Origin: Pomphorhynchus laevis
Lineage: Eukaryota; Acanthocephala; Palaeacanthocephala; Echinorhynchida; Pomphorhynchidae
DNA length: 64,000 nt
NCBI GenBank assembly: GCA_012934845.2
Contig: WNNJ02003048.1
Span: 1-64,000, forward strand
Direction of reading: 5' to 3'
A program made the translations under genes and the position numbers. Below, piece by piece: positions 32,168-63,479 of the stretch. Position 1 is the first letter of the stretch. Every line of letters starts with the position of its first letter. The notes beneath the pieces were generated by a model. That model was not told the origin of the DNA and ran no database searches. It worked only from the letters and a program-made list of their open reading frames with translations.

Positions 32168-32824
32168 CTATTCTGCATAAAAAGCTAAGAACCCTCTTTT
32201 CTTCTTTGAATGACTGTCTAGTGTGTTCATTGCATTGAATAATGTGCTGGATGAAACCCAAATTGGATCGTATCCAGGTGTAACGTCCATGAATAAAAAC
32301 ATATCTTCCGTATACGAGTACTCACCTATTGGACTTATATGACCCGTTTTCCTTTGCTTAAACAGAAAAGACGTATCAACATTGCAGGCAATTATAGCAT
32401 TGCACTTTTTCAAATGTGATAGCATTAGCTCTCGCATCTCTACGGCATTTGAGAAATCAATTCCAGCAAATGATACGTTCACGTGTAGGCCGAAAATTCT
32501 TTCGCTCACATTTTTCAGTTCATCCAAAGTAATTCCAGTCTTATGTACTCTCTTATTACAAGTCAGATCCAGCATTTCAGGGTAGAAAAGAACATCTTTC
32601 TCTGAGATAGATCGCTCCCAATTGTACTTGTCTGCGAACAGTGTATTTAAAACTATAGATAAAGTACAAAATCCACAAAATGTTGGATGCAATTGCTTTG
32701 TGTAGTATTTTTGAACTCGCTGGCAATTTATTGATGTTTCTAAAATCTTGAATCCCAAGCTGCTATTCAAGGGAATCGAACCGTTCAATGGTTCACCAGT
32801 ATTTATTGCCATAGCATTTTGCAT
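32168..32824 (-). CDS. Phytochelatin synthase-like enzyme, half-length
   Basis: Phytochelatin synthase is a papain-fold gamma-glutamylcysteine dipeptidyl transpeptidase. It joins gamma-Glu-Cys units from glutathione to make metal-binding phytochelatins, or hydrolyses glutathione and its conjugates. The 218-residue frame covers the whole catalytic domain. HPTFCGFCTLSIVLN places the nucleophile at Cys50, GHISPIGEY the histidine at His162, and FMDVTPGYDPIWV the aspartate at Asp180. KKKRGFLAFY matches the domain's end. The frame then stops, without the Cys-rich carboxy domain of most plant and animal enzymes, as in bacterial half-molecule forms. No intron is seen. The upstream ATG at 32824 is the first in frame; a second Met follows at residue 5. 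Confidence 0.88.
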   Translation of the reverse strand: MQNAMAINTGEPLNGSIPLNSSLGFKILETSINCQRVQKYYTKQLHPTFCGFCTLSIVLNTLFADKYNWERSISEKDVLFYPEMLDLTCNKRVHKTGITLDELKNVSERIFGLHVNVSFAGIDFSNAVEMRELMLSHLKKCNAIIACNVDTSFLFKQRKTGHISPIGEYSYTEDMFLFMDVTPGYDPIWVSSSTLFNAMNTLDSHSKKKRGFLAFYAE

Positions 32825-32829
32825 TTCAA

Positions 32830-33975
32830 TTCAACTGATTTTGTTTATTTGAAAGGAAATTTGACTCTATGAGGAAACATTACATAAAATGCAAGTTTGT
32901 CAAGAAGCTGTGGGAAAAATAATATCAAAAAGTGACGACGGAATGTTCTGACACGCCTAAATATTTACTTCCTCTATAACAAGACCAACTGTGCAAAAAC
33001 ATCGAAACATAATAGGCTTCATTATGCAACTAATTTTTCTGATAATAGAAAAGATGAAATAGCAAATGTTTTTACTTGACAATATATTTCCCTTTTAGCT
33101 ATGTTGGGGTAAAATTGATTTCATGTGTGAATTTGATACTAGCAATTAACATTAAGAGAATCAAAGGCAATAGTAATTGTCAAAATAAAGGATAGTTTTA
33201 CTTGTCCTTTTAAAATCTGCCGAATGTTGTTATTGTAGTTAACATTTAAATTTGAGAGAACAGTCCGGATAAAATAACCTTAAAAGTTTAAATGAATTTA
33301 AACAAGCTTTATAAGTTTGTTCAGAACTGTAAAAAATTAATAATGCTTATATGACAAGAATTCAACCTTAAAATAAATGAATTAATTTGAATTAATTGAA
33401 GCTTTAATATTTTGATAAATCATAATTATTTAAAAAGTATTAACAACCAAATTAAAACATAAATTAACACATATATTTTATTAAATAGGTAAACAAATTT
33501 ATTCAGATAAATTAAATCTTAATAAAACCTTAAGATAGTTTAATTCTTAATAAATAGTTTAATTCTTAATAATTGATAAAGATGCATACCTAAATATCTA
33601 ATACAAAAATATTAAAATTACACAAATTAGATTATTTATCAACTTATAAAAGTCATACAATGTTTGAAAAGGAAATATTTTAATATATTTTAATATAATT
33701 TTGTTATTTTATATAATATTAATAAAAATCAATATGATGTAATTAATATATTCATTTATATAAAAACATACGTAATAATATATTTTGATAAATTTTACAT
33801 GATATTAATAATAATTAATATTATGTAATTTATATTATATAATAATTACAGTATTGTATGCATATAAAATCCCATTTTAGAATAGCTTAAAATAAGGAGA
33901 GTATTCATTTTATTTCGCGCCATTTAATATATAGATGTCTGTTGGGATCACAACCCTAGAATACAACGTATATCA
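32830..33975. promoter_or_regulatory. Divergent intergenic region between PCS and BTB genes
   Basis: About 1.15 kb separates the two genes, which are transcribed away from each other, so it may hold both promoters. It is AT-rich with no clear core element. I see no frame or repeat of note beyond short AT palindromes. Confidence 0.35.
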
Positions 33976-43213: not shown

Positions 43214-45580
43214 TATGACACTTCTTTAAGTATATTAAATTGCTTAATGGTACATAAATTAAATACCCATTGATAATAAATGAGCGGTGTACAATGCGAA
43301 AATCTTCTCCTCCTCGTTCATTTAATTTAATTGTCTTTTTACGTTTTTTATTTTCAAGCTCGACTTCATCGAACGATGCTAAAATAAAAGCCTATATAAT
43401 ATTTTAGCATTTATGCAAGATTTTTACCTAAAGAAGCAATATTAATTTGTTCTGTTATTTTGGCCTCTTGCATTTGCTCCTCCTGAGTGGGCTTTCGTGG
43501 AATAAAAAGCTTTAATTTGGATGCTCTCTTCTTGTTTTTTAACTTTGCGAATGGTTTATGCTTTAATACAGAAGGTCGAGAGCTTTTCCGTCGACACATA
43601 GGAGATGATTGATCATCTGTCTGCTCGCAGGATAATCGATTATCGTTGATAGTAAACTCACCGTCTATACTGAAGTAATAAAAAATGGATGAGCTGTGAT
43701 TTAAAAATAGCCATTTAAGAGACATAACGACTAAGTCAAACGATTAAACAATTTCTAGAATACTAATCATTTAAATAATAATTTATGATATTTTAAAAGG
43801 AAGTGCATATATGTTTTACAGATTTGAAAAACAATAATCCGCTGTTACACAAAACAACCATTTACTCTGAAAATACATGTTTACGTATTTAATTCTTTTT
43901 TATTAATACGTGAGTATTATCTGATTTGAGTTCTTGTTTGCTTCCACAATATTTACTTCAAATGGATCAAAAAAATCAAATACAAAATATTTATCCTAAA
44001 TTACAATAGAAATTGATTCTTCACAAATTTTTTGAAAAAAATTGTGAAGCTTAAATTTTAAAAATAAAAAATCGATATCTGTCAAGTTATAAAATTGTAA
44101 ATGTTTTAATATAAAAGTTTCATTAGAAATATAAATATTAAAAATTTGATCACATTTTTAGCCTATGTAAATACCAACAAATAGTCGTAATATTTTCCAA
44201 AAATATTATATATTATATATAAAATAATATTAAAAATTTGATCAAATTTTTTAGCCTTTGTGAATACAAATAAACAGTCGTAATATTTTACAAAAATATT
44301 ATATCTTATTATATAACATACAATATTATATATAATATTAAAAATTTGATCAAATTTTTTTAGCCTTTGTGAATACAAATAAATAGTCGTAATATTTTAC
44401 AAAAATATTATATCTTATTATATAACATACAATATTATATATAATATTAAAAATTTGATCAAATTTTTTTAGCCTTTGTGAATACAAATAAATAGTCGTA
44501 ATATTTTACAAAAATATTATATTTTATTATATAATATACAATATTATATATAATATTATAATATTATATATAAGATTATAAGATTATTATAATCTTATTA
44601 TAATCTTATTATTATAATCTAATAAGATTATAATAATCAATAAAATATAATATATAATATTATAATATATTATAATAATCAATAAAATTATTGTTAAAAT
44701 TTATTTTTTAAATTTATTAATAATAAATATTTGCGCAATATTTTAAACAATAAATATTTAGTAAAATTATTTATTAAAAATAAAAATATATATCAAAAAT
44801 TTAATTTATCTCCCTTGTCAATTTTATTACAATTTTATGAGTAATTAATGGAAATGTCCCGATTTATCATCCGGGTAAGAGACATATTGTTTATTTTTCA
44901 AACACTGTTTTCAAATAATGTAAAAAATATATATAATATAATTTTATTATTTAATTTTATTTTTATTTATTTTAATTATATTATATAAAATATAATGTAA
45001 TATAATATTAGATAATAGTGACTTTAATTATGAAAATTAAAAAATGGCATATTAATATTTAAAATGGAATTAAAAATATAATAAAATATATCAACGCAAG
45101 ATATATTAAATTGTATATTTGAAATAAGATTATATATAACTATACATAGCAATTGATATGTTAATGAAAATAACTTATTTTACTCACCCACTTTGAATAT
45201 CAATCAGTGGTAATGTATCGTCTCTCCGCTTATTATCTTGACTGCTCTTTAATGGCTTGTCAGAATTTGTCAGTGTCTTTCTGAACTTAACCTTTTTAGA
45301 CCGTTTATCTTCATTTTTATCGATAGGCTCGCCGTTTTCAGATGATTCATCTTCAGTAATATCGATATCTGAGGCGGAAATATCTGTTCCTGAAGAATCT
45401 GCTTTAAAATCTTCGTCACACTCATCCTTTGAAAATCACAAAATTACTAAATTTATATCAAAAATCAATTACTTCCGAAAATCCACCCATTGAAATCTTG
45501 TAGAATTCATCTTGCAGTTCACCACCGCTCAAAAGCTTAGCAAGACGATTGCCTGCATTTGAACGCCTTGGTCTATCCAT
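43214..45580 (-). CDS. VPS72: VPS72/YL1 nuclear protein, partial (5' exons)
   Basis: YL1 is a subunit of the SWR1/SRCAP and TIP60 chromatin remodellers and a histone H2A.Z chaperone. Minus-strand exons: 45580-45473, 45426-45188, 43669-43428 and 43378-about 43214, with AG/GT borders and consistent phases. Exon 1 gives NAGNRL..LL and DEFYKISMGGFSE, close to the conserved AGNRL...DEFY...GGF start that binds H2A.Z-H2B. Exon 2 is acidic. Exon 3 has TQEEQMQEAKITEQINIASL, the conserved TQEELL.EAKITE.NL motif. Exon 4 (SFDEVELENKKRK) follows the family. Intron 1 is only 46 bp; intron 2 is about 1.5 kb and holds a tandem repeat. The carboxy YL1-C domain was not found. The end of exon 4 is inferred from a GTAAGT. 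Confidence 0.85.
44137..44565. repeat. Four-copy tandem repeat, about 108 bp, in VPS72 intron 2
   Basis: ATTAAAAATTTGATCA.ATTTTT followed by AGCCT.TGT.AATAC and TAGTCGTAATATTTT.C recurs at about 44139, 44229, 44337 and 44446. Copies 2-4 are nearly identical; copy 1 is more diverged. It trails into AT palindromes to about 44660. Confidence 0.75.
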
Positions 45581-54182: not shown

Positions 54183-54455
54183 CAATCACGAAGAAGCATA
54201 ATCACGAAGGAGCATAATCACGAAGAAACATAATCACGAAGAAACATAATCACGAAGAAACATAATCACGAAGAAGCACAATCACGAAGAAGCATAATCA
54301 CGAAGAAGCATAATCACGAAGAAGAATAATCACGAAGAAACATAATCACGAAGAAGCATAATCACGAAGAAGCATAATCACGAAGAAGCATAATCACGAA
54401 GAAGCATAATCACGAAGAAGCATAATCACGAAGAAACACCAATCACGAAGAAACC
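54183..54455. repeat. 16-bp minisatellite, about 17 copies
   Basis: The unit AATCACGAAGAAGCAT repeats head to tail with rare changes (GAAGGAGC, GAAGAAAC, GAAGAATA). A 16-bp period cannot keep a reading frame, so it is non-coding. It has no spacers, so it is not a CRISPR array. Confidence 0.85.
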
Positions 54456-54833
54456 TTAGGTATCTATGAGCAGAAAAACGATTTAGTGGACTATAAAGAA
54501 ACCATGGTAGTGTTTTGATATCGCAACGCCAAAACACTAAATTACTTCATTACTTTTTAGACTAATGACCTCCAAATAACTTTTTGAAGGTCATCAATCT
54601 AAGTAATGAAAGCCTGTATTTATTTATTATATAACTATATATAATAAAATTATGATAATTCAAGTAATTATCAAACAATACTTTATTTAATTAGTGTTGA
54701 TGTGTTGACATCAACATAAGCTAATCGCCTTGTATTGCTATAGTAATTACAAGCTAATCGAGCGTCAAGTCAAAGACGTTTGCAAAATGGATCGAAGCGA
54801 ATTGCTTAGTCGAAAATCTCTGCCGGAGGATGA

Positions 54834-55441
54834 GGGGGTGGATGTTATATTGTAACCGATTATCATCCGGCCTTATTGTCTTTGGAGGGTGATCTCAATA
54901 GGGCATTAGCGTCTTTGAATGTAATCACGGGCTCAAGGAAGAAACTGAAAGTAGTTTTTAAAAAGGGTGTTAATTTGAGAAATCTACTATCAAATAAATT
55001 ACGTCATGAGGGTACATTAAGTGGTACACGCCCCTGCGGTAATAATAGATGCAAATGCTGCGCAGAAATATGCAGATGCAGCAAATTTCGTAGCTCTGTC
55101 ACGGCGTTGGAGTACACCACAAGATGTGCAGCCACATGTAAAACGAAAAACCTAGTATATTTGTGTTTGTGTGCTGAATGTCCGGTTCAGTATGTCGGAG
55201 AAACAGGACATCAACTTAATATTCGTATGAATACTAGACGTTGCGACGTTAGAGCTGGACGAACTGGTAGGGATGGTGCAGCTAATCATTCCATTGAACA
55301 CCCTGGGCATACAATGAGCGTTATGGTTTTAGAGGATGAATTGCCTAACGTAACTGCGAGGAGAAATAGGGAACAGTTCTGGATAACGCAACTTATGACA
55401 GATTTATACCTAAACACAAATAATGACTGTCACTTACCTTA
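54834..55441 (+). pseudogene. Penelope-like element, C-terminal GIY-YIG endonuclease
   Basis: The open frame runs from after a TGA at 54831 to the stop at 55439-55441. It gives LSLEGDLNRALASL, VFKKGVNLRNLLSNKL, then GTRPCGNNRCKCC, the Cys-rich linker typical of PLEs. The endonuclease follows: NLVYLCLC..CPVQYVGETGHQLNIRMN, with the L-V-Y / Y-V-G pair, a catalytic Arg, and a later glutamate (RNREQFWI). The domain nicks DNA for target-primed reverse transcription. The RT part is missing upstream, so the copy is 5'-truncated, but this half is uninterrupted and its codons look conserved. It may be young. The hammerhead satellite begins 390 bp downstream. Confidence 0.85.
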
Positions 55442-55527
55442 GCACATGAACTGTATATTTGTGTTTTGATACTTGATTTGTGTTTTTGTTATATTGCAGG
55501 CATTGTATTGTGCATATGTATATTTCA

Positions 55528-55578
55528 GATTGAACTGAAGAAGGCTTACAAAAGCCGAAAGCTTTTCTAATAAATCAC
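55528..55578 (+). ncRNA. PLE terminal hammerhead-like motif, + copy
   Basis: CTGAAGA (55535-55541), A, GGCTT/AAGCC stem (55543-55547 with 55552-55556), GAAA (55557-55560). This is the order CUGANGA, stem II, GAAA of a hammerhead, with one extra A before stem II and no clear stem III or cleavage triplet. AATAAA follows at about 55570. It marks the PLE 3' end. Confidence 0.45.
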
Positions 55579-55673
55579 AGTCACTGTTCATTGGATTTCG
55601 ATTTCAATCGTAAAATAAATATTTCGAAAGTATTCCAGAAATGGGATCTCGTGTGCGGTTCAACAGTAACATA

Positions 55674-55675
<2 letters not shown>

Positions 55676-55760
<85 letters not shown>
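55676..55760. repeat. (TA)n microsatellite, about 42 repeats
   Basis: Pure TA dinucleotides between a + and a - copy of the PLE terminal motif. The minus-strand frame here is only the YI dipeptide repeat and is not a gene. Confidence 0.95.
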
Positions 55761-55763
<3 letters not shown>

Positions 55764-55789
55764 CAAAAACAAAATGACAAAATGTATAT

Positions 55790-55841
55790 TTTTTAAAGCT
55801 TTCGGCGTGAGCCTTCTTCATACACCCTATTAGGGTGTATG
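55790..55841 (-). repeat. Inverted PLE end and 11-bp palindrome at array edge
   Basis: Minus-strand GAAGAAGGCTCACGCCGAAAGC is a second PLE terminal motif facing the first. It abuts CATACACCCTA-T-TAGGGTGTATG (55819-55841). The right half of that palindrome is the first 10 bases of the satellite unit, so the array begins head to head with an inverted PLE-like end. Confidence 0.65.
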
Positions 55842-56093
55842 GAAATGGATATCATGAAGGAAGGATTCTGTAGCTGGTTTTCAATGCGAAAGTCACCTCG
55901 TGTGACCTAGCAACTATTCATTACATAAATAAGCATCTATCAAAGGATCACCACTCCCGATTTCAATCGATCTTCATGATCTCATACGATAAAATCTATA
56001 ATAAGCATGCCAGAGAAGCATCTCGGACAATGCAGTTTCTGGATATCATGATGGAAGGTTTCATATACTGTGTGAAATCTGGTAATCCTGGAT

Positions 56094-56152
56094 TCGTAGC
56101 CTAGCAGTCAAGAGCGCAAGCCAAGCACGGAGAGCGACAGCTCGAATCTCGG
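56094..56152 (+). promoter_or_regulatory. tRNA-like Pol III promoter in each satellite unit
   Basis: GTAGCCTAGCAGTCAAGAGCGC followed by CACGGAGAGCG and CAGCTCGAATCTCGG looks like a tRNA-Leu/Ser-derived body. TAGCCTAGCAGT (56097-56108) matches the A box TRGCNNAGTGG loosely and AGCTCGAATCT (56139-56149) the B box GGTTCGANTCC, about 31 bp apart. It recurs every 443 bp and in the piece at 63.2 kb. Pol III transcription is inferred. Confidence 0.6.
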
Positions 56153-56189
56153 ATAAGTCAAATTTCAAAAGGCGAAGAGTTGGTAGTCA

Positions 56190-56279
56190 GCCTTCTGACG
56201 AGCCCGGGGCTACCAACATGTGGCAAAAAGCGGGCGAAACGAAAACGGTTGTGGCAATGGCGCCGTTAGTAGTCAGAGT
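56190..56279 (+). ncRNA. Type I hammerhead ribozyme, unit 1
   Basis: Stem I GCCTT (56190-56194) with AGAGT (56275-56279); core CTGACGA (56195-56201); stem II GCCCG (56202-56206) with CGGGC (56231-56235); GAAA (56236-56239); helix III with AACGG/CCGTT inside AC/GT; cleavage triplet GTC (56272-56274). All invariant core residues are present. The cut would fall after C56274, exactly at the unit border. Stem I has one C-A mismatch here. Confidence 0.85.
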
Positions 56280-56632
56280 GTATGGAAATGGATATCATGA
56301 AGGAAGGATTCTGTAGCTGGTTTTCAATGCGAAAGTCACCTCGTGTGACCTAGCAACTATTCATTACATAAATAAGCATCTATCAAAGGATCACCACTCC
56401 CGATTTCAATCGATCTTCATGATCTCATACGATAAAATCTATAATAAGCATGCCAGAGAAGCATCTCGGACAATGCAGTTTCTGGATATCATGATGGAAG
56501 GTTTCATATACTGTGTGAAATCTGGTAATCCTGGATTCGTAGCCTATCAGTCAAGAGCGCAAGCCACTCATGGAGAGCGACAGCTCGAATCACGGATAAG
56601 TCAAATTTCAAAAGGCGAAGAGTTGGTAGTCA

Positions 56633-56722
56633 GCCTTCTGACGAGCCCGGAGCTACCAACATGTGGCAAAAAGCGGGCGAAACGAAAACGGTTGTGGCAA
56701 TGGCGCCGTTAGTAGTCAGAGT
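56633..56722 (+). ncRNA. Type I hammerhead ribozyme, unit 2
   Basis: Same core and stems as unit 1, shifted by 443. One G to A change in the stem II loop (CCCGGAGCT) leaves the helix intact. Confidence 0.85.
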
Positions 56723-57075
56723 GTATGGAAATGGATATCATGAAGGAAGGATTCTGTAGCTGGTTTTCAATGCGAAAGTCACCTCGTGTGACCTAGCAAC
56801 TATTCATTACATAAATAAGCATCTATCAAAGGATCACCACTCCCGATTTCAATCGATCTTCATGATCTCATACGATAAAATCTATAACAAGCATGCCAGA
56901 GAAGCATCTCGGACAATGCAGTTTCTGGATATCATGATGGAAGGTTTCATATACTGTGTGAAATCTGGTAATCCTGGATTCGTAGCCTAGCAGTCAAGAG
57001 CGCAAGCCAAGCACGGAGAGCGACAGCTCGAATCTCGGATAAGTCAAATTTCAAAAGGCGAAGAGTTGGTAGTCA

Positions 57076-57165
57076 GCCTTCTGACGAGCCCGGGGCTACC
57101 AACATGTGGCAAAAAGCGGGCGAAACGAAAACGGTTGTGGCAATGGCGCCGTTAGTAGTCAGAGT
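57076..57165 (+). ncRNA. Type I hammerhead ribozyme, unit 3
   Basis: Identical in core, stem II and GTC site to unit 1; same stem I mismatch. Confidence 0.85.
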
Positions 57166-57518
57166 GTATGGAAATGGATATCATGAAGGAAGGATTCTGT
57201 AGCTGGTTTTCAATGCGAAAGTCACCTCGTGTGACCTAGCAACTATTCATTACATAAATAAGCATCTATCAAAGGATCACCACTCCCGATTTCAATCAAT
57301 CTTCATGATCTCATACGATAAAATCTATAACAAGCATGCCAGAGAAGCATCTCGGACAATGCAGTTTCTGGATATCATGATGGAAGGTTTCATATACTGT
57401 GTGAAATCTGGTAATCCTGGATTCGTAGCCTAGCAGTCAAGAGCGCAAGCCAAGCACGGAGAGCGACAGCTCGAATCTCGGATAAGTCAAATTTCAAAAG
57501 GCGAAGAGTTGGTAGTCA

Positions 57519-57608
57519 GCCTTCTGACGAGCCCGGGGCTACCAACATGTGGCAAAAAGCGGGCGAAACGAAAACGGTTGTGGCAATGGCGCCGTTAGTA
57601 GTCAGAGT
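57519..57608 (+). ncRNA. Type I hammerhead ribozyme, unit 4
   Basis: Identical in core, stem II and GTC site to unit 1; same stem I mismatch. Confidence 0.85.
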
Positions 57609-57961
57609 GTATGGAAATGGATATCATGAAGGAAGGATTCTGTAGCTGGTTTTCAATGCGAAAGTCACCTCGTGTGACCTAGCAACTATTCATTACATAA
57701 ATAAGCATCTATCAAAGGATCACCACTCCCGATTTCAATCGATCTTCATGATCTCATACGATAAAATCTATAATAAGCATGCCAGAGAAGCATCTCGGAC
57801 AATGCAGTTTCTGGATATCATGATGGAAGGTTTCATATACTGTGTGAAATCTGGTAATCCTGGATTCGTAGCCTAGCAGTCAAGAGCGCAAGCCAAGCAC
57901 GGAGAGCGACAGCTCGAATCTCGGATAAGTCAAATTTCAAAAGGCGAAGAGTTGGTAGTCA

Positions 57962-58051
57962 GCCTTCTGACGAGCCCGGGGCTACCAACATGTGGCAAAA
58001 AGCGGGCGAAACGAAAACGGTTGTGGCAATGGCGCCGTTAGTAGTCAGGGT
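57962..58051 (+). ncRNA. Type I hammerhead ribozyme, unit 5, best stem I
   Basis: As unit 1, but the sequence after GTC is AGGGT instead of AGAGT, so stem I pairs fully (GCCTT with AGGGT, including G-U pairs). This and the copy at 63.3 kb have the best-formed ribozymes. Confidence 0.87.
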
Positions 58052-58387
58052 GTATGGAAATGGATATCATGAAGGAAGGATTCTGTAGCTGGTTTTCAAT
58101 GCGAAAGTCACCTCGTGTGACCTAGCAACTATTCATTACATAAATAAGCATCTATCAAAGGATCACCACTCCCGATTTCAATCGATCTTCATGATCTCAT
58201 ACGATAAAATCTATAATAAGCATGCCAGAGAAGCATCTCGGACAATGCAGTTTCTGGATATCATGATGGAAGGTTTCATATACTGTGTGAAATCTGGTAA
58301 TCCTGGATTCGTAGCCTAGCAGTCAAGAGCGCAAGCCAAGCACGGAGAGCGACAGCTCGAATCTCGGATAAGTCAAATTGGTAGTCT

Positions 58388-58422
58388 TCTGGCGGTATGC
58401 CTTGTGTATTTTGATATATAAT
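58388..58422 (+). repeat. Stray LTR fragment next to the 5' LTR
   Basis: GGCGGTATGCCTTGTGTATTTTGA..TATA resembles the LTR interior at 58494-58525 (GGCGGTATGCCTTTGTATTTTGACTATATA). It sits between the broken sixth satellite unit and the 5' LTR, suggesting an earlier LTR-related event at this site. Confidence 0.6.
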
Positions 58423-58614
58423 TGTTGTGTATGAACGAACACACTGCAAATGTATGGCAATGACGATTATCACTGGCAGCAATGTGCTTGGCGGTATGCC
58501 TTTGTATTTTGACTATATATGTCGGATAGCGACTGTTTCTGAACGCTGGTGTTTTGTTTGTACTAAAAATTAAAAAACGTTAGCGTTTGCTTTGCAATGT
58601 CTGAAAACACAACA
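58423..58614 (+). repeat. 5' LTR, 192 bp
   Basis: Begins TGTTGTGT and ends ACACAACA, an 8-bp perfect terminal inverted repeat with TG...CA edges. It reads identically to 62781-62972 base for base by eye. The gag-pol start codon (58597) lies inside it. Confidence 0.95.
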
Positions 58615-61600
58615 ATTGGCGACGAGGGTGGTTCAAAATTTTCGTCGAACGACATTATGAAAATTGTATGGGAACAACAACGTACATTGACGAAGTTGAT
58701 GGAAAGTCTGCAAAATCGTGAAAATCCCAATAAGGATTGCAATATACCGGCGTTTCAGCATTTCAATGCAGATCACGATAAGTGGATTGATTACGGGATT
58801 CAACTGAAGAATTTTTTGGGCATGCACAGAGTTGATTCACAGATGCGACAAAAACAATTCTTACTGTCCAGTTGTGGTCAAGAAATTTTTCGCTTGGTTG
58901 GACAATTGATTCCGTCTTTCGAAAAAGAGGACATTACTTTCGAGATGATTATTAAGGAACTCGATCGTCATTTTAAAAAGCCGATGCATATAGTTGCAGC
59001 CAGATTCGAATTTACGCAATGTCGACAAAAAGCCAATCAGTCACATAAAGATTGGATAGCGGAAGCAAGGGGCCTGGCTAGTAAGTGTTCGTTTTTCGAT
59101 CAATCCATTCAAACCGAACAGCAAGCAATCGACGACAGATTGAGAGATCTGGTAATTGCATATACTCCAATCGAGGAAATACGTATGAGTCTATTACGAT
59201 TAGACAATCCTACGTTAGACGATGTAATTAGGATTGCTTCTAATTGGGAAATGACACAAGCTACTAAGCACTTGTTAGCGACGGAAACCAGCTCGAATTA
59301 TGCAAATGACTCGAAAAAGGATGTTGAAATTTCGCATGTTAATAAATTAAGTGCTGGACGTCGATCACAATGGAATAAAAATTCCATGCCTCGTTGTACA
59401 CGATGTAATGGTTCAAATCACGTAAATGAGCAACAGTGTTGGGCTAAGAACGTAAAATGTCACCGTTGTGGTAAGATAGGTCATATTCGTCGATGCTGCA
59501 AGGTAGCACTACAAAATATTCATCAGTTGATATCAGACGAGAATGGTGATAATAAGGCTGTAGAGTTGGCTTTTCTCGAAATTCAAAACGTTTGTCGAAG
59601 GGACCATATCCTGGGACCGACATTGGAAGTGAGAATAAACGGAGTTCAAGTGGAAATGGAGTTTGATACGGGAGCAATGTTGTCTGTAATATCTCAAAAA
59701 ACATGGTCAAGTTGTGGTTCGCCTGAGCTAAGAGCGGGAAGATGGCTGAGAAGTTTTGGTGGAGGGTTGATAAAGAGCATAGGTCAATGTCAAGTGACTG
59801 TAGAACTAGATAATGTAGCCAAATTGTTGAATGTCGAGGTCGTATACGAAACAGAAAAGAGCTTGTTTGGACAACCGTGGATAGAAGCATTTAACATGTC
59901 CTTGCCACGTCAAGTAAGATCCCGCCCACGAGCTATCAATCAGTTAAATTTAAATCAACAAGGTGCATCCGATTTAAACCACATGTTACTCAGATTTAAG
60001 GAGTTATTCAATGAAGATCTTGGGAACATTAAGGATTTGGAGATAAAGTTACAAGTTGATCCATCGGCTATTGCACGATGCATTCCGGCTCGTCGCGTAC
60101 CACTGCCATTAAAGCCAAAAATCGAAGAAGAGTTAAAGCGCCTTTTATCGAATGGAACATTAGAGCAAGTTGATTCAAACTGTAATTATATTGAATGGGC
60201 GAGTCCAATTGTTTCTGTGCTCAAGAAGGATAACTCAATAAGACTTTGCGCTGACTTCAAGGCGACAATTAATCCGTATCTGAATTGTGATTGTTTCGAA
60301 TTACCGACATTTGAGGAGATACTGAGCAAAATCGCAGGAGGCACCTTGTATTCAGTATTGGATTTAAAGGATGCGTATTCACAAATGAAAGTTCATCAAG
60401 ACTCTCGAAAGTATTTGACCATATCGACACCCTTCGGATATTATCAATATCGTCGATTACCATTTGGGTTATCCATTGCACCAATTTTGTTCCAGCGTTA
60501 TATGAATCAATTACTCGGTACGATTCCGGGCGTCGCAGTTTATCTGGATGATGTTGTAGTTGCAGGTGAAACACGTTCAGAACATATAGACAGACTTCGA
60601 AGTGTAATGACAAGATTATTGAATGCGGGAATACGAGTTAAACGTGAAAAGTGTTTATTTCTTCAAGAACAAGTCAAATTTCTGGGACACGTGTTAGATA
60701 AAGGAATGGTAAAAGTTGATCCAGAGAAAGTTGATACTATTCAAAATATTTGTCCACCGTCAAATCCTAAAGAACTGCGAACGTTCTTGGGAACCATAGG
60801 GTTCCTTGAACGTTTTATTCCTCATTTGCGGTCGCAGTGTGCTGACTTGTATTCGTTAACGGGTGTACGAGCGAATTGGAACTGGACAGATCGGCATCAA
60901 AGCCAATTTGAATTGGTCAAGCAAAGTATGCTAAAACCGAAAATTTTAATACCATATGATGGGAAGAGTAACCTGAAGCTGTATTGTGATGCTTGTGAGA
61001 GAGGCTTAGGAGCCGTACTGCTTCAAGAAACTAAAAACAACCGTTATCTGCCGATTGCATACGCATCAAGAAAATTGAGCAGCGCGGAAATAAATTACTC
61101 GCAAATCGACCGGGAGGCACTTGCACTTATATTCGGTGTCAATAAGTTTCGATATTTTCTATTAGGTAGAAAGTTCGTACTCATCACTGATCACAAACCT
61201 TTGAAATACATATTCGGAAATCAACGTAATTTGCCAAAGATCGCGAATCAGCGTTTAGTCAGATGGGCATTGTTGTTGAGTCAATTCGACTACGAACTCG
61301 AATGCATTCCAGGAAAAGATAACATAATTGCCGATGTCCTCTCCAGATTTCCATGTCAAGGCCTTGACTGTGCAGAAACGTCGGGAACAAATGATATCTG
61401 TGTGAATTTGTTATGTGAGGACACACCTTTATTATCCGCAACAGCTATTCGCGAAGCTACGAAACAAGATTTGATTCTAAAAAAGGTGACGCAATATGTG
61501 TCGATCGGTTGGCCAAACAAAGTTACAGACTCGAACATTCATTATTACAGCACAAGACGCAATGAGTTATCATTTGAAAATGGAATTTTGCTTTTAGGAG

Positions 61601-62751
61601 CGCGTGTATTAATTCCGACGAGTCTACGGGAGACAGTTTTGCGAGCTTTGCATGCAGGCCATCCGGGAATTGTGGCTATGAAGTCCTTATCACGATATTA
61701 CGTATGGTGGCCTGGATTGGATGCTGATATCGAGCGCTCAGTACAAAATTGTAACGATTGTCAGCGTTTCCGGAATAACGAACCTAACCATCCACTTCAC
61801 AATTGGCCTGTACCCAGCGATATATGGACTAGGATTCACGTAGATTTCGCCGGACCATCCCAACAGGAGTATTACTTTGTGGTTCAGTGTGCTCTATCAA
61901 AATGGCCAGAGGTTATTAAGATGCAATGTACAAGTGCTCACTCAACAATAAAGGTATTAAGAGAAATATTTGCCAGAAATGGGGTTCCGGAAGAGCTGGT
62001 ATCAGACAATGGTCCCCCGTTTCAGTCTTCCGAATTCGCGAATTTTTTGCAGTCTAATGGAGTAAAGCATGTAAGAGTATCTCCGTATCACCCAAGATCA
62101 AACGGTTTAGCGGAGAGGTTTATTCAAGTACTAAAGAATAAAGTGATCAGACCTTACAATATACACGATCGTCCAAAGCGATTGCAGCAATTCTTATTGT
62201 CGTATAGAAACACACCGCACAGTGCCACAGGAAAACCACCATCAATTGTCTTTACCGGTCATCGTTTGACTACCTTATTTGATCGTTTGAAACCGAATCT
62301 ACGTTCTACACTTGAAGGTTATCAAGCAAATAACAAAATACATTTCGATAAGAAATCCAAACCGAGGGAGTTTTATTCAGGAGAAAAGGTGTGGTATCGG
62401 CAGAAAAGTAACGAACCGTGGTCGGCGGGGGAAATAGAAAAGCGCTCAAACTGGACATCGTATGTCGTGAGCAACGCTGATCAAAACTACAGATTACACG
62501 CCGATATGCTTCGTAAAGGAGAAGGTATAGAGAATCGAGAAATTACCAATGATGCAGACAATGATCAAGAGAAAATGAATTCAACATTGTCACAGCGGAT
62601 TGAGATAACTAGTGATCAAAGTCCACTTACCATTACGAATTCGGCGGATGAAAAAAATCTTGAACATGATAATTGCCATCGCCAATTACCTAGACGATCA
62701 GAAAGAGTCCGTAAAGTACCTGTTCGATATGGCTGGAATGTGGCGTACTAA
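58597..62751 (+). CDS. Mag-type Ty3/gypsy gag-pol polyprotein, intact
   Basis: One uninterrupted 1384-residue frame. Order: capsid-like gag (1-260); two CCHC knuckles (about 266-303, CTRCNGSNHVNEQQC and CHRCGKIGHIRRCC); protease (FDTGAMLSVIS, Asp about 356); RT (about 500-690, YLDDVVVAGE at 649); RNase H (LYCDACERGLGAVL about 795); integrase with HHCC zinc finger (HAGHPG...CNDCQ, from about 1018) and D,D,E residues (HVDFAGP about 1082, VSDNGPPFQ about 1136, NGLAERF about 1172). No envelope gene, so it moves within the cell. The fused frame, double knuckle and LTR-borne start fit the Mag lineage. No inactivating change was seen. Relics at 14.5 kb are older relatives. Confidence 0.95.
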   Translation: MSENTTIGDEGGSKFSSNDIMKIVWEQQRTLTKLMESLQNRENPNKDCNIPAFQHFNADHDKWIDYGIQLKNFLGMHRVDSQMRQKQFLLSSCGQEIFRLVGQLIPSFEKEDITFEMIIKELDRHFKKPMHIVAARFEFTQCRQKANQSHKDWIAEARGLASKCSFFDQSIQTEQQAIDDRLRDLVIAYTPIEEIRMSLLRLDNPTLDDVIRIASNWEMTQATKHLLATETSSNYANDSKKDVEISHVNKLSAGRRSQWNKNSMPRCTRCNGSNHVNEQQCWAKNVKCHRCGKIGHIRRCCKVALQNIHQLISDENGDNKAVELAFLEIQNVCRRDHILGPTLEVRINGVQVEMEFDTGAMLSVISQKTWSSCGSPELRAGRWLRSFGGGLIKSIGQCQVTVELDNVAKLLNVEVVYETEKSLFGQPWIEAFNMSLPRQVRSRPRAINQLNLNQQGASDLNHMLLRFKELFNEDLGNIKDLEIKLQVDPSAIARCIPARRVPLPLKPKIEEELKRLLSNGTLEQVDSNCNYIEWASPIVSVLKKDNSIRLCADFKATINPYLNCDCFELPTFEEILSKIAGGTLYSVLDLKDAYSQMKVHQDSRKYLTISTPFGYYQYRRLPFGLSIAPILFQRYMNQLLGTIPGVAVYLDDVVVAGETRSEHIDRLRSVMTRLLNAGIRVKREKCLFLQEQVKFLGHVLDKGMVKVDPEKVDTIQNICPPSNPKELRTFLGTIGFLERFIPHLRSQCADLYSLTGVRANWNWTDRHQSQFELVKQSMLKPKILIPYDGKSNLKLYCDACERGLGAVLLQETKNNRYLPIAYASRKLSSAEINYSQIDREALALIFGVNKFRYFLLGRKFVLITDHKPLKYIFGNQRNLPKIANQRLVRWALLLSQFDYELECIPGKDNIIADVLSRFPCQGLDCAETSGTNDICVNLLCEDTPLLSATAIREATKQDLILKKVTQYVSIGWPNKVTDSNIHYYSTRRNELSFENGILLLGARVLIPTSLRETVLRALHAGHPGIVAMKSLSRYYVWWPGLDADIERSVQNCNDCQRFRNNEPNHPLHNWPVPSDIWTRIHVDFAGPSQQEYYFVVQCALSKWPEVIKMQCTSAHSTIKVLREIFARNGVPEELVSDNGPPFQSSEFANFLQSNGVKHVRVSPYHPRSNGLAERFIQVLKNKVIRPYNIHDRPKRLQQFLLSYRNTPHSATGKPPSIVFTGHRLTTLFDRLKPNLRSTLEGYQANNKIHFDKKSKPREFYSGEKVWYRQKSNEPWSAGEIEKRSNWTSYVVSNADQNYRLHADMLRKGEGIENREITNDADNDQEKMNSTLSQRIEITSDQSPLTITNSADEKNLEHDNCHRQLPRRSERVRKVPVRYGWNVAY
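58616..58633 (+). other. Probable primer binding site
   Basis: TTGGCGACGAGGGTGG starts one base after the 5' LTR. TGGCGAC... is a common primer-site start in Ty3/gypsy elements, complementary to a tRNA 3' end. The exact tRNA was not determined. The segment is also translated, as the frame begins in the LTR. Confidence 0.6.
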
Positions 62752-62768
62752 AAAGACCACATTTATAT

Positions 62769-62780
62769 GGGGAAGAGGAA
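62769..62780 (+). other. Polypurine tract
   Basis: GGGGAAGAGGAA directly abuts the 3' LTR, as needed to prime plus-strand DNA synthesis in LTR elements. Confidence 0.85.
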
Positions 62781-62972
62781 TGTTGTGTATGAACGAACAC
62801 ACTGCAAATGTATGGCAATGACGATTATCACTGGCAGCAATGTGCTTGGCGGTATGCCTTTGTATTTTGACTATATATGTCGGATAGCGACTGTTTCTGA
62901 ACGCTGGTGTTTTGTTTGTACTAAAAATTAAAAAACGTTAGCGTTTGCTTTGCAATGTCTGAAAACACAACA
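62781..62972 (+). repeat. 3' LTR, 192 bp
   Basis: Identical by eye to the 5' LTR. The flanks are ATAAT before the 5' LTR and GTTTG after the 3' LTR, so no target-site duplication is visible. Confidence 0.95.
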
Positions 62973-63090
62973 GTTTGGTATAATTTTATTACTTATGGAA
63001 CTATGGTTAAATCATCGCGTCTTGCCACCATTCTTCAAATAGTTTAAAGGATAATTAATTTAAGATCTTAGCTATGTAAAATCTTTAAAT

Positions 63091-63449
63091 GCCAAGAAGC
63101 ATCTCGGACAATGCAGTTTCTGGATATCATGATGGAAGGTTTCATATACTGTGTGAAATCTGGTAATCCTGGATTCGTAGCCTAGCAGTCAAGAGCGCAA
63201 GCCAAGTACGGAGAGCGACAGCTCGAATCTCGGATAAGTCAAATTTCAAAAGGCGAAGAGTTGGTAGTCAGCCTTCTGACGAGCCCGGTGGCTACCAACA
63301 TGTGGCAAAAAGCGGGCGAAACGAAAACGGTTGTGGCAATGGCGCCGTTAGTAGTCAGGGTGTATGGAAATTGGATATCATGAAGGAAGGATTCTGTAGC
63401 TGGTTTTCAATGCGAAAGTCACCTCGTGTGACCTAGCAACTATTCATTA
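63091..63449 (+). repeat. 443-bp satellite, separate piece
   Basis: Starts mid-unit at GCCA.GAAGCATCTCGG, runs through the tRNA-like part and ribozyme into the first 95 bases of the next unit, then stops at ATTCATTA. It has its own changes (GGTGGCTACC, GGAAATTGG). It lies beyond the LTR element and may be the far end of the same array or an independent copy. Confidence 0.85.
63271..63361 (+). ncRNA. Type I hammerhead ribozyme, satellite piece
   Basis: GCCTT, CTGACGA, GCCCG/CGGGC, GAAA, GTC (63354-63356), AGGGT. Fully formed core and stem I. One base is inserted in the stem II loop. Confidence 0.87.
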
Positions 63450-63479
63450 TATATAGATCTCGTGGCAAACGAGATTACG

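Follow-up and report, generated by a model that had tools for sequence, protein, structure and literature searches.

On our best reading, the tandem array at 55832-58379 belongs to a hammerhead-bearing family of the known non-LTR retrozyme kind, whose copies appear to bear, genome-wide, the signs of 5' ends set by the ribozyme and of Penelope-type integration. The array lies in the window analyzed here, a stretch of 64,000 nucleotides from Pomphorhynchus laevis, and is probably an insertion of a non-autonomous non-LTR retrozyme, for which ribozyme-cut RNA would have been copied by Penelope-type machinery. The Penelope-like element, the TA targets and the head-to-head arrangement described below go beyond an earlier, sequence-only reading of this DNA, which had proposed a tandem repeat with a hammerhead in every unit.

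The 443-bp array and its putative hammerhead

The features of the array and its surroundings are as follows.

54756-55675, plus strand: Penelope-like element, 3' part, with a C-terminal frame at 54834-55442; other copies stop at the equivalents of 55622 or 55675
55677-55760, no strand: (TA)42 tract between the Penelope-like 3' end and the inverted fragment
55762-55831, minus strand: inverted fragment, head-to-head with the array, with a Penelope-type minimal hammerhead-like motif at 55798-55820
55832-58379, plus strand: 443-bp array of five complete units plus a partial one of 333 nt, beginning exactly at unit position 1, the 5' end of the predicted cleavage product
55922-55931, plus strand: 3'-terminus site A (unit 91-100), recurring every 443 bp; many copies elsewhere pass into TA tracts here
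55990-56001, plus strand: 3'-terminus site B (unit 159-170), sequence-aligned with the Penelope-like terminus 55611-55623
56190-56279, plus strand: hammerhead of unit 1, with helix I 5' strand 56190-56194, CTGACGA 56195-56201, stem II 56202-56206/56231-56235, GAAA 56236-56239, predicted cleavage 56274/56275 and helix I 3' strand 56275-56279
56638, 57081, 57524 and 57967, plus strand, and 63276 past the insertion: further hammerhead cores
58423-62975, plus strand: Ty3/Gypsy-type LTR retrotransposon splitting the array, with repeats at 58423-58617 and 62781-62975 that are 99.5% identical
63077-63453, plus strand: rest of the array past the Ty3/Gypsy-type element (unit 159-443, then 1-96), with the sixth hammerhead core at 63276 and a short TA run at its end

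Repeat finding in the window recovered a tandem repeat at 55835-58379 with 5.7 copies and a 99% match, bearing out the exact 443-bp period of the sequence-only reading over five full units; the GC content of the array is 0.45 (56001-58000). All five full units (5/5) carry CTGACGA, GCCCG/CGGGC, GAAA and GTC in hammerhead order, as had been claimed for every full unit. The extent given for the array held for 55832-58379 but was incomplete, in that the array resumes at 63077-63453, beyond the Ty3/Gypsy-type insertion, with a sixth complete hammerhead.

Bordering the Ty3/Gypsy-type element are a 43-bp LTR-like segment and some 100 bp of further sequence (58380-63076). No clean target duplication was seen around it in this interval, and the array resumes out of register; the region reads as a nested or rearranged insertion. 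A plant-type LTR retrozyme was considered for the array and rejected, as there are no flanking LTRs with a PBS and PPT, and the nearby LTRs belong to the separate, interrupting element. Elsewhere in the window, a phytochelatin-synthase-like frame (PF05023) lies at 32168-32830 on the minus strand, for which a protein search returned, besides itself, one distant homologue only (28% identity). The window also contains a 16-bp minisatellite at 54184-54452 and a 109-bp repeat in about three copies at 44224-44558.

We described the hammerhead by its core, helix I of at least 4, stem II of at least 4 and helix III of at least 2, a descriptor chosen after the motif had been seen. It was matched once by the family consensus and by 0 of 20000 random Markov sequences of unit composition, and the antisense of the consensus gave no match. 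Helix III, which the sequence-only reading had listed, is present, although not as a simple hairpin: it consists of 2 bp, an irregular internal loop and then AACGG/CCGTT. Four of the five main-array junctions read GTC/AGAG, versus GTC/AGGG in the family consensus; the AGGG form occurs at 58046 (the fifth junction of the main array) and at 63356. The AGAG form leaves 2 bp of the 5-bp helix I ahead of a mismatch, and helix I is thus weakened. Core position 7, a free position, varies between C and T across copies. Core mutations in most copies were not seen; rather, the core was intact in 101 of the 106 units that hold this region in the fetched stretches.

A match to the Rfam type I hammerhead models had been set beforehand as a check, and here the outcome was negative: no Rfam hammerhead model matched the array at the gathering score or at E<=10. 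In the portions of PMC7229834 drawn on here, such a match does not figure among the defining features of animal retrozymes. A 296-bp hammerhead family of the same genome does match Rfam. The ribozyme of the 443-bp family is an unusual long-stemmed hammerhead, with extended stems II and III, and covariance-model searches can miss a hammerhead of this form. In predicted folds, the imposed hammerhead reached -28.4 kcal/mol versus -34.8 kcal/mol for the best structure, so that it would not be the lowest-energy form but about 6 kcal/mol dearer, and three ribozyme stretches from the window folded no better than their shuffles. The ribozyme region showed no excess conservation (0.0092 versus 0.0105 for the rest of the unit), and selection on the ribozyme was dropped as a claim for this reason.

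Copy ends across the genome

A search of the genome (249 Mb, 3242 contigs) with the first 17 bases of the unit found 1081 exact copies. The base before the unit start was not the last base of the unit in 168 of these, versus 31 of 857 at an interior control boundary, 260/261 (Fisher P 2e-19). On inspection, 29 of 33 broken 443/1 boundaries were copy starts exactly at the predicted cleavage site (manual count; a script gave 30); the 33 matches came from 30 stretches, L091 looks like a mutated unit, and L108 and L114 have a common flank. At the control boundary, none of 10 inspected cases among the 31 was a copy start. The inspected samples were the top of the match listings, skipping places already fetched, and hence not random, and the similarity searches scored the best candidates only (in one search, the best 35 of 1050).

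Among the fetched stretches, 12 of 55 non-edge starts had unit base 1 as their first base (uniform model, P 7e-21), two of which (C19 and C3071) have a common flank; the other 43 lie away from base 1. Some base-1 starts abut TA tracts directly, and since the first A of such a start may belong to the tract, its position is sure only to one base. Others are exact head-to-head joins, with base 1 facing base 1 on C1917 and L102. The 168 candidate starts, with 29 of the 33 inspected ones real, bear on ribozyme cutting, and copy 5' ends coincide with the site at which self-cleavage is predicted. The proposed retrozyme-type repeat, with type I hammerhead cleavage at C56274/A56275 and at the equivalent bonds of the other units, is partly supported: copy 5' ends genome-wide fall on that bond, while Rfam gives no match.

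Furthermore, 11 of 13 inserts starting at base 1 exceed a whole number of units (0, 1, 2 or 3) by 100 or 169 bases, within one base. One of the 13 lies at a contig edge, and the two exceptions are the window array, split by the inserted element, and a divergent C1021 copy. These lengths are as expected if the templates carried uncut internal ribozymes, and linear oligomers of this kind explain the array lengths equally as well as circles do.

Other hammerhead families were also present. The pattern CTGANGAN14GAAA gave 5859 matches in the genome versus 329 for a reversed control, and further hammerhead repeats occur at spacings of about 296, 306, 323, 351 and 379 bp. A 30-base ribozyme pattern had no exact match in viral or in bacterial and archaeal contigs. 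The 351-bp family showed no excess of cut-site starts, with 20 of 397 boundaries broken and 2 or 3 of the 15 inspected among these 20 looking like starts, and in the 296-bp family 0 of 12 starts fell at its own cut site. The 296-bp family, which is Rfam-positive, has 5 of 12 ends at one position beside AT runs, and head-to-head arrays are present. These two families read as copied mostly from circles, or as cut differently. At L085 (C19:222000-224000), a 351-bp array lies between a TA tract and a Penelope-like RT frame, fused to the frame four bases past the cut site, as if the enzyme might have switched templates.

The restriction of the cut-site excess to the 443-bp family, among the families examined, is what would be seen if base 1 were the transcription start of a SINE-like retroposon, with the reverse transcriptase running off the primary transcript and the hammerhead inactive or incidental; that the hammerhead is not the predicted lowest-energy fold points the same way. 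However, such a start would coincide only by accident, at odds of 1 in 443, with the single bond at which the motif predicts cleavage. A Pol III promoter of the tRNA type was tried and rejected: A-box-like and B-box-like stretches lie at unit 266 and 308, but at chance level, with 904 of 4000 random sequences scoring as high. ARAGORN found no tRNA in 55500-58700. We consider a transcription start at base 1 unlikely.

The 3' ends are also fixed. Of 58 in the fetched stretches, 16 fall at unit 100 and 23 at unit 169 (together 39/58), and 48 lie in TA tracts, versus 68 of 7715 background windows; the remaining 10 lie outside TA. TA tracts at the insertion ends would mask target duplications. Head-to-head neighbors were found on 15 of the 36 fetched contigs with the repeat (manual count), and several head-to-head arrays have TA at both outer ends, e.g. 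on C3017, C1917 and C168, which is the product expected if both target strands had been primed.

The fetched stretches hold 80 full units, distributed over 44 arrays and 34 contigs. Two units from the same array differed by a median of 0.45% (59 pairs), two from separate arrays of a contig by 0.46% (35 pairs) and two from separate contigs by 1.14% (3066 pairs), and the corresponding means were 1.15%, 3.89% and 2.18%. Unlike the medians, the means fail to favor likeness within a contig, because some contigs hold divergent copies. Tandem repeats, the alternating unit variants seen on C713 and a ribozyme lacking excess conservation would all suit ordinary satellite DNA, expanded by unequal crossing-over and with a chance or dead hammerhead. 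But the distribution over 44 arrays on 34 contigs, the fixed 3' termini in TA, the 5' ends that are scattered or at the cut site, and the head-to-head pairs are signatures of insertion, and they make the satellite explanation highly improbable.

Kinship with Penelope-like elements and proposed mode of copying

The two 3' termini have a counterpart in the Penelope-like element next to the array. Among 45 Penelope-like matches, the last query position was 472-473 in 18 and 524-526 in 20 (manual count), which sets the two termini some 53 bp from each other. Because the query stops at 526, the second terminus rests instead on fetched copies, of which 7 of 9 others turn into TA there; at the first terminus, TA tracts follow 14 of 15 sampled copies. 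Furthermore, the Penelope-like 3' end aligns with unit 116-206 with a score of 52, which none of 1000 shuffles equaled (maximum 46). The alignment sets Penelope-like 55611-55623 on unit 159-171, so that the first terminus of the element corresponds to the second terminus of the unit. An earlier alignment against unit 61-170 alone was weaker, with 32 of 1000 shuffles as good. The inverted fragment at 55762-55831 is joined head-to-head, over three bases, to the first base of the array, and its outer part is found again on another contig (L156), past a Penelope-like end and a TA run.

A Pfam search of the window C-terminal frame (54834-55442) gave no match. A longer frame of the element, at L070, gave a weak RT match of 25.3 bits, under the Pfam cut-off, and no GIY-YIG match in Pfam. 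GIY-YIG (PF01541) was present in 38 of 120 homologues among the matches listed (of 2664; manual count). The Penelope assignment of the element is therefore a putative one, which rests on homologues with GIY-YIG and on our recognition of the element, not on domain matches of its own.

A possible hairpin of the form UCC-loop-GGAUC was observed close to the ends that face TA in three hammerhead families and in some Penelope-like elements. Among 12 tails chosen by eye, 9 contain it (shuffle mean 0.15, maximum 2); in flanks taken without such a choice it occurs in 9 of 53, versus 8 of 8278 background windows; among these 9 flanks, 2 are 443-bp copies themselves and 2 have a common flank. This putative shared tail hairpin is suggestive. 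The window units read GCATCT where the consensus has GAATCC, and we therefore do not rest the case on it.

Mobilization by a LINE or by the neighboring Ty3/Gypsy-type element, in place of the Penelope-like element, was weighed as well, since the Gypsy-type element lies directly against the array and the window also contains RT fragments from further elements. The Gypsy-type element was rejected as the parent of the array because it splits the array and because self-comparison showed no similarity between its repeats and the unit, whereas the two termini, the TA targets, the head-to-head pairs and the shared sequence fit the Penelope-like element. We regard transfer by a LINE or Gypsy-type element as quite unlikely.

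Under the preferred reading, a retrozyme copied by Penelope-type machinery, long array transcripts would self-cleave at the junction of unit bases 443 and 1, probably at a slow rate and only in part, and the resulting RNA would carry unit base 1 as its 5' end. The pattern of copies suggests, as the enzyme involved, a Penelope-type reverse transcriptase/GIY-YIG endonuclease that would open (TA)n tracts, in many cases on both strands. Copying would begin at either of two internal AU-rich sites of the RNA, near unit 91-100 or 159-170, and run toward the RNA 5' end, often halting exactly at the ribozyme cut. Where both strands were primed, two copies joined head-to-head would result, and tandem units would come from templates with uncut ribozymes, or from circles. 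The signal recruiting the enzyme would be at least partly common in sequence with the adjoining Penelope-like element. We lean, with less assurance than for the insertion itself, to the view that the piece related to the Penelope-like 3' end makes the 443-bp family a template of the enzyme, that linear ribozyme-cut oligomers, and not circles alone, serve as templates, and that the copies record cutting in the germ line.

Elements of both kinds occur here in one genome, marked alike by two termini in TA tracts and with related terminal sequence. If true, in vivo hammerhead activity would be readable from genomes, and there would be a direct answer to what mobilizes animal retrozymes. Both this question and that of ribozyme cutting are testable with one purified enzyme and one short RNA.

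Comparison with known systems

By description, the family can be likened to schistosome Sm-alpha, which consists of satellite-like repeats with type I hammerheads.

A similar likeness, also by description, holds for the newt satellite repeats, as characterized in the portions of PMC7229834 drawn on here, which are likewise satellite-like with type I hammerheads. A further parallel in that source is with animal non-LTR retrozymes, described as tandem repeats of 150-450 bp with a type I hammerhead, GC under 50% and no LTR, with thousands of motifs per genome and Penelope-like elements in the same genome. The 443-bp family shows type I hammerhead order, a repeat length in the 150-450 bp range, GC under 50% and multiple dispersed copies. 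It differs from the retrozymes described there in its extended stems II and III, unmatched by Rfam, and in its frequent cut-site starts; TA-tract targets, two termini and sequence in common with a Penelope-like 3' end are not described in those portions. Target duplications of animal non-LTR retrozymes, where present, are given as longer than 4 bp, and Cervera and de la Pena (2020) went no further than to call Penelope-like elements a strong candidate for mobilizing such retrozymes (PMC7229834). Judging from titles and the openings of abstracts, we found neither TA-tract targets nor copy ends at the cut site described for retrozymes in the literature. The plant LTR retrozymes (PMC4918200; features as summarized in PMC7229834) are also non-autonomous and hammerhead-bearing, but differ in their LTRs, PBS, PPT and type III hammerheads.

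With regard to integration, the 443-bp family shows an AT-rich target and two adjacent 3' termini, as found for Penelope-type integration. For a purified Penelope-like enzyme, cleavage of both strands of AT-rich DNA and initiation at two neighboring sites within the RNA have been reported (PMC11167929). According to the parts of that report used here (Frangieh 2024), Anolis Poseidon resembles the present family in its two adjacent internal RT starts, its AT-rich target, its cutting and extension on both strands, and its hammerhead. The 443-bp unit differs in having no enzyme gene; furthermore, copies end at the cut here, whereas no RNA reads were found beginning or ending at the Poseidon hammerhead cut. 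The RNA start sites of Poseidon are not homologous to the DNA that is cut, while in the 443-bp family both are AT-rich.
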